Positions 50,375 through 52,256 of a stretch of 53,168 bases of DNA are shown piece by piece (within the stretch, counting starts at the first letter, position 1; every line of letters begins with the position of its first letter). The notes beneath the pieces were generated by a model that made no database searches, was not told the DNA's origin, and saw only the letters and a program-made list of their open reading frames with translations. Made by a program: the position numbers and the translations under genes. This DNA comes from Eubacterium sp. (lineage in GTDB: Bacteria; Bacillota; Clostridia; Peptostreptococcales; Anaerovoracaceae): positions 1 to 53,168 of the forward strand of contig JAFWJS010000005.1 of assembly GCA_017511535.1 (NCBI GenBank). The letters are read 5' to 3'.

Positions 50375-50450
50375 TGGTTGCGGGAGAAGGACTCGAACCT
50401 ACGACCTCCGGGTTATGAGCCCGGCAAGCTACCAACTGCTCCACCCCGCG
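50375..50450 (-). tRNA. Initiator tRNA-fMet (anticodon CAT)
   Basis: Complete cloverleaf with encoded CCA. Two initiator marks are visible: the unpaired C1-A72 at the acceptor end (CGCGGGG with TCCCGCA) and three G-C pairs at the base of the anticodon stem (GGGCTCATAACCC). Third gene in the Asn-Leu-fMet transcript. Confidence 0.95.
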
Positions 50451-50473
50451 ATGTTATGCGCTTGATTCTCCTA

Positions 50474-50561
50474 TGGTGCCGGCGACCGGGGTCGAACCGG
50501 TACGGTCGCAATGACCATAGGATTTTAAGTCCTACGTGTCTGCCAATTCCACCACGCCGGC
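50474..50561 (-). tRNA. tRNA-Leu (anticodon TAA)
   Basis: Class II tRNA: acceptor GCCGGCG/CGCCGGC, encoded CCA, anticodon loop CTTAAAA, long variable arm, T loop TTCGACC. Second gene of the cluster. Confidence 0.95.
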
Positions 50562-50567
50562 AAAAAT

Positions 50568-50642
50568 TGGCGCCCCGAGTAGGGCTCGAACCTACAACCT
50601 ACCGGTTAACAGCCGGTTGCTCTACCATTGAGCTATCGAGGC
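50568..50642 (-). tRNA. tRNA-Asn (anticodon GTT)
   Basis: Acceptor GCCTCGA/TCGGGGC (one T-G pair), discriminator G, encoded CCA, anticodon loop CTGTTAA, T loop TTCGAGC. First gene of the cluster, six nt before tRNA-Leu. Confidence 0.95.
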
Positions 50643-50674: not shown

Positions 50675-50703
50675 ATTATATAACAAGGTCGGCTGGGTGT
50701 CAA
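50675..50703 (-). promoter_or_regulatory. Consensus promoter of the tRNA cluster
   Basis: Perfect TTGACA, 17-nt spacer, perfect TATAAT on the minus strand, about 33 nt before tRNA-Asn. It sits just after the terminator of the RNA gene upstream. Confidence 0.85.
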
Positions 50704-50714
50704 GGACTTCTGAG

Positions 50715-51123
50715 AAATAAAAACCGGGGCCCTTTCTGACCCCGGTATTTTACTCCGTTATTTTAAGACATATTCTGATCTATAATGGTATCCTCACAAC
50801 GGTGAGGTTCTACGAACTATTTAATTAAGACTACCATTTCCGCTAACTTGTACGGGCTGATCTCCAGACTTACCCGGAAACATTTCTGACAGCTGATACA
50901 TTCTGCTAACGAATTCTGAGGACTCATTTCCTCTATGCCATCTGGTCATGGTGTGATGTGATGATCAGCTATCCTGCCTCCGAGTTCTGAGACCATGCCC
51001 GGATATGTCTCCCGGACTTCTGTAAACATCCATTGGTCTCATCTCCCTTCGTTCTGATTCCGGCATTTCCACCGGTCTGAAATCTTACGACTGTTTGATC
51101 TATTTCATATCATCTCTGATTTC
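50715..51123 (-). ncRNA. Unidentified structured RNA of about 400 nt
   Basis: The 580-nt gap between tRNA-Asn and the TPR gene holds no credible coding frame but is a complete transcription unit: near-consensus promoter, many hairpins and an intrinsic terminator. Stems include 50784-50790 with 50832-50838 (7 bp) enclosing 50792-50797 with 50802-50807, 50837-50842 with 50875-50880, 50918-50922 with 50929-50933, 50989-50995 with 51034-51040 (7 bp), and 51060-51063 with 51072-51075. The pentamer CAGAA occurs eight times. It lacks the diagnostic sequences of RNase P, tmRNA and SRP RNA. Coordinates run from the predicted start to the end of the T-run. Confidence 0.65.
50723..50746 (-). terminator. 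Terminator of the structured RNA
   Basis: Stem ACCGGGG/CCCCGGT with a 10-nt loop and TTTTATTT on the minus strand; it ends the RNA just upstream of the tRNA-cluster promoter. Confidence 0.8.
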
Positions 51124-51129
51124 ATCTTT

Positions 51130-51157
51130 ATTATACAGCAGCAGATCCTAAAGTCAA
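51130..51157 (-). promoter_or_regulatory. Promoter of the structured RNA
   Basis: TTGACT, 16-nt spacer, TATAAT on the minus strand. No ribosome site and start codon of quality follows within 60 nt. Confidence 0.75.
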
Positions 51158-51216
51158 GCATTTTATCAAAATATTCTGACAATTCATTCGGCAATAGTTT
51201 TTTCATATAACAAAAA

Positions 51217-51236
51217 GATGGTCACTGAAGACCATC
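51217..51236 (-). terminator. Terminator overlapping the TPR stop codon
   Basis: Stem GATGGTC/GACCATC with a 6-nt loop and TTTTTG on the minus strand. The 5' arm is made of the last codons of the TPR gene and its TGA stop lies at the edge of the loop. Confidence 0.75.
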
Positions 51237-52256
51237 CTTAGCTGTTTCCTCTGCGTTTTCCTTTTCCCGCTCCTGCCTGTCAAGCTCGCGGTTCTGCTCT
51301 ACCAGCTGTATCTTATCGCGGTATTTCTTCGCTTTGACTCCGTCGCCCGCATCCTCATAGAGCTCAGCAAGCTCGTTCATCGCGTCAGTATTGGAAGGAG
51401 AATATCTCAGGCATGTGAGAAGATGTTTCTCCGCCTCGGCCGGGTTCCCGCCTTCCTTATACGCTATCCCGAGATAATACCACATCGGCCAGTAAGTGTT
51501 GAATTTCTCATCTCTTGTATATGGTTCCAGCACCATTACTCCCCTGTCGTATCTTCCGGCAGTTATATCATTAATGCCGCTTTCTATCCTGCATGGGTCT
51601 GCAAGCTTGTCCAGCACCTCCGCTATCTCTGCCCTGAGCTCTCCTTCCTTCGATATCCTCATGAATTCGTCAAAAGTAAGCTTGGCCTTTGTATAAAGCC
51701 CCAGGTTCAGATATCCGTATCCCAGGAAATAATATCCCTGATCAAAGTCCGGATGCAGTATGGTAAGCCTTTCGAACATCCGGAGCGACTCAGCCTTGAA
51801 CGTACCTACGTAGTCCTCGCCGTCACCGTTCTCATATGCGTCCTTGCAGGCTCTCGCGTAAAGGAATAAAGCATCCTGTGAATCCGGAGCGATCTGGAGC
51901 GCGGCTCTGAACCATATGCACGCCGTCTCCGGATCCTTATCCTGCGCTGCCTTGACCCCTTCATTCAGAAGCGGCTTTTCAAAATCATGCGGGAAGCACT
52001 TCGCTATATATGCCAGATAGTTGTCTCTGTATTTGAAGTTTCTGTCACATCCTATGACGTAAGCCATATTGCTCGCGATCATCAGTGTGGAAGTGGCGCC
52101 GCCTGTTATCTCTGTTGTTTTGAACGGTATAGGAACACCTTTCAGTATATCTGTCATCTCTGCCTTCTTCAGATATTCCTCAGAAAGCTCATCGAACAGC
52201 AGGCTGTCCAGATGGTGCACGAGATATTCACCGACTTTATCGTTCTTCTGTTCCAT
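51222..52256 (-). CDS. Tetratricopeptide-repeat protein
   Basis: 344 residues, no signal peptide. Helical repeats with TPR spacing: ACIWFRAALQIAPDSQDALFLYARA near 110-135, DQGYYFLGYGYLNLGLYTKAKLTFDEFM, YWPMWYYLGIAYKEGGNPAEAEKHLL and NTDAMNELAELYEDAGDGVKAKKYRD. A likely cytoplasmic scaffold; partner unknown. AAGGAG lies 5 nt before the ATG, 12 nt after the radical SAM stop, so the two are co-transcribed. Confidence 0.82.
   Translation of the reverse strand: MEQKNDKVGEYLVHHLDSLLFDELSEEYLKKAEMTDILKGVPIPFKTTEITGGATSTLMIASNMAYVIGCDRNFKYRDNYLAYIAKCFPHDFEKPLLNEGVKAAQDKDPETACIWFRAALQIAPDSQDALFLYARACKDAYENGDGEDYVGTFKAESLRMFERLTILHPDFDQGYYFLGYGYLNLGLYTKAKLTFDEFMRISKEGELRAEIAEVLDKLADPCRIESGINDITAGRYDRGVMVLEPYTRDEKFNTYWPMWYYLGIAYKEGGNPAEAEKHLLTCLRYSPSNTDAMNELAELYEDAGDGVKAKKYRDKIQLVEQNRELDRQEREKENAEETAKDGLQ

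Follow-up and report, generated by a model that had tools for sequence, protein, structure and literature searches.

The window analysed here is a 53,168-nt stretch of DNA from a Eubacterium sp., and its minus-strand interval 50719-51157 lies between a gene for a TPR protein (51222-52256, assigned with Pfam) and a cluster of three tRNA genes, for Asn, Leu, and Met (50375-50642). Read on the minus strand, the interval starts with the promoter TTGACT-16-TATAAT (51157-51130), which has 11 of 12 matches to the consensus, and ends with an intrinsic terminator (50719-50746), the terminator-like stem of which has nine pairs (50746-50723). The terminator is followed by a separate promoter of the tRNA cluster (50703-50675, 12 of 12 matches), and within the window there is no gene that is led by the RNA. 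A preliminary description of the locus had listed this promoter, the terminator, and the insulation from a tRNA cluster with a promoter of its own, and the analysis confirmed it, with promoter and terminator at the places given. A count over the 1.2-kb region gave three promoter-like and five terminator-like sites, versus 1.5 ± 1.2 and 1.1 ± 0.9 in shuffled sequences, so that, by count, the promoter match alone could still be due to chance. The interval is predicted to encode a free-standing RNA, about 400 nt long, whose conserved ORF has 22 codons.

The fold of the interval (−128.4 kcal/mol) was better than those of all 100 dinucleotide shuffles (−100.3 kcal/mol, z = −5.4), which bears out the strong folding that had been claimed for the minus strand. 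When most of the terminator hairpin was left out, the z value was −2.7 and none of 60 shuffles was as good. Two stems of 7 bp had also been described; both are real, yet they are parts of longer pairings, i.e. GAGACCA/TGGTCTC is part of the helix P0 over the ribosome-binding site, and AGCTGAT/ATCAGCT is part of the helix P1 (see below). Only 17 of the 27 copies of the RNA treated below have folding z values below −2, and the values of the other ten are above −2. Of the 42 TCAGAA hexamers that the entire window has on its minus strand, eight fall within positions 50700-51190; each of the other 26 RNA copies contains 0-2. Many GGA motifs are also found in the sequence, which prompted the thought of a CsrA sponge.

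A comparison with Rfam had been suggested for this locus. At the gathering score, the Rfam 15 families yielded five tRNAs in the window and nothing else. Within the interval, a scan with E values up to 10 gave eight matches, all of them below the gathering score (best E 0.18), and a scan of 17 relative loci with E values up to 1 gave tRNAs and two sub-threshold hits, nothing more. RNase P, which had been considered from the sequence, had no Rfam match, and a tmRNA was found in the window neither by ARAGORN nor with Rfam. The raiA RNA (RF03072) and 6S RNA (RF00013) were rejected as identities of the interval: the raiA of this genome scores above the cut-off on another contig (G000:C31:12861-13026), and its 6S RNA does so at G000:C13:8659-8836. 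The two RNAs are present in 16 and 17, respectively, of 17 genomes of the same genus. The kinship to ROOL, raiA, or OLE that had been considered possible thus found no match in the interval, nor did the covariance models of GOLLD and other Rfam 15 families match it. Like raiA/ModT, ROOL, OLE, and GOLLD, the predicted RNA is structured and stands alone; unlike these, it carries a ribosome-binding site and a conserved ORF. According to an excerpt of PMC12286853, tRNA islands are frequent neighbours of ROOL and GOLLD. On the basis of the scans, the predicted RNA belongs to a family that is missing from Rfam.

The homologue and covariation checks that had also been proposed were performed as homologue searches, pair counts, and permutations in place of R-scape; they yielded 27 copies and covarying helices. 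Searching 149 related genomes with the plain DNA sequence led to the nearest relative, G009, with a shorter copy at the same place and with the same neighbours, to G001, with a match of 29 nt (97% identity) at a different genomic place, and to a further weak match, G111, where no such RNA is present. The conserved piece of DNA consists of codons, with a start that is preceded by a ribosome-binding site and 22-24 codons that include Pro-Gly-Asp-Ile. A sequence-only model of the ORF part (R1) matched 13 of the 17 genomes of the same genus with E values of 5e-6 or better. The remaining four genomes, two of which are in one or two contigs, have no match, showing that the RNA is dispensable. After the models R1 and R2, the total among 349 genomes of the family was 27 loci: 33 genomes matched, of which 27 were taken as genuine, four (G062, G057, G059, and G278) were rejected because they resemble other sequence, and two (G175 and G326) were left out of the count.

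All 27 copies belong to the Anaerovoracaceae (order Peptostreptococcales) and are distributed over four genera, with 13 copies in the genus of the window and six, four, and four in three others; one copy (G013) is in Aminicella lysinilytica DSM 28287. By a simple promoter rule, a promoter-like site in sense orientation is present upstream in 19 of the 27 copies. Of five matches outside the family (G097, G118, G438, G446, and G503), three were inspected (G118, G446, and G503), and none of these is real. A first search with a peptide profile (E up to 10) matched 78 of 197 genomes, mostly by chance, and was discarded. The sole match in a search of viral contigs lies inside a long ORF, without such an RNA. 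The literature search found no paper on Aminicella lysinilytica, and neither GPGDI nor Anaerovoracaceae occurred among the literature matches listed, none of which proves absence from print.

The best-conserved part of the RNA is the short ORF (50965-51033, minus strand), which encodes MDVYRSPGDISGHGLRTRRQDS in 22 codons before the stop. The sequence contains the Shine-Dalgarno core GGGAG (51043-51047) 9 nt before the ATG. The preliminary description had missed this ORF and its ribosome-binding site and had taken the RNA as noncoding. That part did not hold, whereas its proposal of a new structured RNA that has a promoter and a terminator of its own is supported by 27 copies in four genera, covarying helices, and no Rfam match. 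All 27 copies have an ATG or TTG start, a ribosome-binding site, and 20-30 codons; in the other copies, a purine run of the GGAG or AGGA type was seen by eye about 8-11 nt before the start. A core, [GS][PS]GD, begins at residue 6-9. In the window, it is encoded by AGT CCG GGA GAC (Ser-Pro-Gly-Asp, 51007-51018), as delimited by the codon conservation in the 27 copies. The first and second positions of the core codons are identical in 24-27 of the 27 copies, while the third positions vary with two to three letters each (A16/T9/C2, A16/G8/C3, A19/C5/T3, and C25/T2; related copies are unweighted in both counts), a mark of translation. Across the genera, only the core is conserved as protein and the tail behind it is not kept; within the genus of the window, Ile, Gly, and His/Arg behind the core are mostly kept as well. 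A slippery heptamer was not seen by eye at the core codons, and no known arrest motif matched.

The codons behind the core contain a strand with two predicted alternative partners. In the following, D denotes the first base of the Asp codon. This switch strand extends from about D+9 to D+30 inside the ORF (50979-51000, minus strand); D+9 is the edge of the strand that was searched, and the 5′ edge is good to a few nt. The first partner is the ribosome-binding site together with the spacer (51034-51047), which pairs with 50982-50995 to form P0. The duplex in the window has −16.1 kcal/mol, and one of 300 shuffles is as good. The second partner (50854-50878) is located about 120 nt downstream and forms PX, with 21 pairs and −30.0 kcal/mol in the window, which none of 300 shuffles reaches; in the family, its position is roughly +150 to +190 relative to the start codon, and it forms 15-22 pairs. 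P0 and PX use the same letters and are therefore mutually exclusive.

To quantify the specificity of both pairings, own partners were compared with partners from other copies in permutation tests on 22 representatives of the 27 copies, five near-identical copies having been dropped beforehand. The cognate P0 duplexes had a mean of −15.3 kcal/mol versus −11.4 kcal/mol (sd 0.54) after permutation, a difference not reached in any of 10,000 permutations. The means for PX were −24.5 kcal/mol (cognate) and −16.8 kcal/mol (permuted; same 22 copies), with 0 of 5,000 permutations and z = −10.2. Four control pairs of strands showed no signal (z 0.15 to 0.82), and a fifth, the ORF core against the 3′ domain, showed a weak one (z = −2.1). 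The comparisons indicate that the predicted helices P0 and PX both co-vary with the switch strand. When the copies were taken singly, no more than 7 of 300 shuffles equalled PX in 25 of the 27, the exceptions being G009 (62) and G401 (26), and P0 was equalled by at most 24 of 300 shuffles in 26 copies, the exception being G015 (48).

A scan with 10-nt pieces located the signals more narrowly. No signal was found over the core codons. For PX, it was absent up to D+2 to D+11 and present from about D+10 to D+35 (0 of 2,000 permutations at D+10, D+18, D+22, and D+26), with a dip at D+14 to D+23 (39 of 2,000). For P0, it was strongest from D+14 to D+27 (0 of 2,000 at D+14 and D+18). When the edge was left free, the predicted PX duplex extended into the core codons via internal loops in 26 of the 27 copies, and this extension has no own-partner signal in the 10-nt scan. 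This places the onset of the PX own-partner signal around D+10, some 7 nt past the Asp codon. In 19 of the 27 copies, the first base of the P0 partner lies between D+13 and D+18. Five copies have two extra codons before the core; in four of them this base lies at D+13 to D+15, and in G015 at D+33, suggesting that what matters is the distance from the core.

The reading frame of these letters is not constant. The GGC at the base of PX is found at D+10 in 14 of the 27 copies (13 of the own genus and G209) and at D+11 in ten; it is at D+13 in G395 and absent from G242 and G157, and G401 has an extra GGC at D+8. The same RNA letters are therefore read in different frames, and the start of the P0 partner is likewise spread over all three frames (14, 8, and 5 of 27). 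Judged from these positions, the 3′ half of the predicted ORF is kept as RNA rather than as protein.

Folding of successively longer prefixes of the window RNA gave P0 (11 pairs) between +58 and +154, mixed folds between +162 and +178, and, from +186 onwards, PX (21 pairs). In the fold of the full-length RNA, two of the five Shine-Dalgarno letters are unpaired and three are paired elsewhere; in this model, the site is thus freed incompletely.

In many copies, the ORF is directly followed by a three-way junction of P1 and two hairpins, which lies inside PX. In the window, the junction domain (50888-50973, minus strand) was read from the sequence and the folds, with ten P1 pairs between 50964-50973 and 50888-50897 and hairpins at 50938-50951 and 50918-50933. 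Because MAFFT misaligned the junction in several copies, the covariance model R3 was trained on only six copies from one other genus (alignment A8). Default filters gave matches at the same place in six further loci. With the filters off, there were eight such loci, so that 14 of the 27 copies are covered including the training rows; of the 18 matches that this second search gave at E values up to 3, four were at other places. Neither the window copy nor G009 was matched by R3. In alignment A9, which has 11 distinct rows including the six training rows, 95.1% of the junction cells are paired and 10 of 16 pairs have changed on both sides. None of 500 shuffles reached its covariation score, and sliding the partners destroyed the score. 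RNAalifold gave no consensus structure for alignment A4.

The 3′ domain contains a hairpin that was read from the sequences, CCTCAC-CGTT-GTGAGG (50792-50807, minus strand), which is compensatory to CCCTAT-CGTT-GTAGGG in the nearest relative, G009. The motif ATTATAGATCAGAATATGTC (50767-50786), recognised by eye, is likely the counterpart of the TATATAGAT motif of the relatives. Two motifs that precede the terminator, GTTATYG and TATATAGAT, were seen by eye to recur across several genera, and no partner strand was found for either of them. Pairing of TATCGTAAT with ATTACGATA was seen by eye in the copies of the own genus and does not extend to the other genera.

We propose that the window encodes a stand-alone RNA, the fold of which is likely set by ribosomes on its own mini-ORF via the mutually exclusive helices P0 and PX, and put the probability of this reading at about one half. 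According to the prefix folds, P0 would form first while the RNA is being made and would hide the ribosome-binding site. Once the 3′ strand of PX emerges, the switch strand would move to PX and the ribosome-binding site would be freed. A ribosome could then start, and because the PX signal begins near D+10, it would meet the helix about when Gly-Pro-Gly-Asp is decoded. The spacing alone suggests that it may pause there, at the base of PX about 7 nt beyond the Asp codon. Passing or stalled ribosomes would open or hold PX, and the junction and the 3′ domain would switch between two forms. As the RNA leads no gene in the window, the putative 3′ domain would most likely act in trans. We infer transcription, translation, pausing, and the target. 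A tentative extension, to which we give distinctly less credence, is that the RNA represents a new class of stand-alone RNAs that read the state of translation: a ribosome paused on Gly-Pro-Gly-Asp would hold a switch with three partners (the ribosome-binding site, the ORF strand, and the downstream strand), and the 3′ domain would report this in trans, with no gene in cis.

Alternatively, the RNA could be the messenger of a small protein, with a peptide of 20-30 residues as the product and P0 and PX serving only to hold back translation until the whole RNA has been made, as in messengers of type I toxins. The closest mechanism that we found in print is that of aapA3 of Helicobacter pylori, the toxin messenger of which forms metastable hairpins that sequester the Shine-Dalgarno sequence, one of them within the ORF, and that have been proposed to act during transcription (excerpt of PMC6733600). 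The short ORF and the hairpin that would hide the ribosome-binding site, here deduced from sequence and folding, are shared with the excerpted account of aapA3 and other type I toxin messengers; P0 likewise reaches into the ORF, and the prefix folds of the window give the same order of events. The small size of the peptide and the retention of the residues behind the core in the own genus would also agree with a protein product. In contrast to the aapA3 type, as far as the excerpt describes it, the competing helix encloses a junction domain. Across the genera, moreover, the peptide behind the core is unconserved and the RNA is kept in different frames. The mean hydropathies of the 27 peptides range from −1.27 to 0.25, unlike those of a membrane-type toxin or of the hydrophobic peptides of type I systems. 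An antisense promoter, as expected for type I toxin messengers, was not seen in the window interval and was found in 7 of the 27 copies at scattered places, both by a simple-rule scan that is weak evidence. The tail, being hydrophilic and unconserved, disfavours a toxin, and the absence of an antisense promoter from the window may do so too; we regard a small-protein messenger as rather unlikely.

A dual-function small RNA, with a 3′ domain that base-pairs with messengers and an ORF with a largely independent product, as in SgrS/SgrT and SR1/SR1P, is unlikely in our assessment. It would account for the stand-alone unit with promoter and terminator, the short ORF near the 5′ end, and the recurrence by eye of the two 3′ motifs before the terminator. 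The predicted RNA shares with SgrS, SR1, and VcdRP, as these are described in excerpts, that it stands alone and also encodes a small peptide. In contrast to those descriptions, the coding strand would itself be the element of the switch. ORF and structure are not independent, because one strand serves as coding sequence, as anti-ribosome-binding site, and as PX strand.

In leader-peptide attenuators of the erm, trp, and tna type, a ribosome on a short ORF decides between alternative helices. The short ORF described here is similarly placed, and a leader in cis that controls a neighbouring gene by conditional read-through of the terminator was therefore weighed against the gene neighbourhoods. 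Genes of four types, i.e. for a ferredoxin-like protein, 5-formyl-THF cyclo-ligase (5-FCL), an AEC permease, and an Mrp-type ATPase, were searched in flanks of about 1.5 kb, shorter at contig ends. At least one of them is present at 20 of the 27 loci, and at 18 loci they occur only upstream and on the opposite strand. In the window, the Mrp gene and the AEC permease gene lie a few kb from the RNA. Divergence of the RNA from a small ferredoxin-like gene that adjoins 5-FCL, AEC permease, or Mrp ATPase genes is recurrent, e.g. at L054, L055, L060, L067, L068, L070, L088, and L119; G005 has a ferredoxin gene, beside which no such ORF was found. Only G006 has any of the four gene types downstream in the same direction, as an attenuator would require, with a ferredoxin-like gene that follows the RNA. 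At several loci, the nearest large ORF downstream likewise has the opposite direction, and in the window the RNA ends at a terminator that is followed by the 12/12 tRNA promoter. The ferredoxin, 5-FCL, AEC, and Mrp genes are neighbours of the RNA outside its transcription unit. An attenuator differs further in that the ribosome-binding site that is switched here is that of the ORF itself, and this reading is very improbable.

Chance or decay, with an untranslated ORF and a structure without a role, would suit the ten copies with folding z values above −2 and is hardly credible in view of the codon-periodic conservation, the two covarying helices, and the covarying junction in four genera.

In known cases, a short ORF that sets the fold of an RNA is part of a gene leader or of a toxin messenger. 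The RNA described here would place this logic in a free-standing RNA, in which it has been kept in four genera of the Anaerovoracaceae. It is also an example of how the call of a "noncoding RNA" can rest on an overlooked ORF of 22 codons. The near-invariant core of four residues sits just ahead of the helix that a ribosome would meet, which opens a direct test of whether an RNA can become a sensor of translation through its fold in concert with a nascent peptide.
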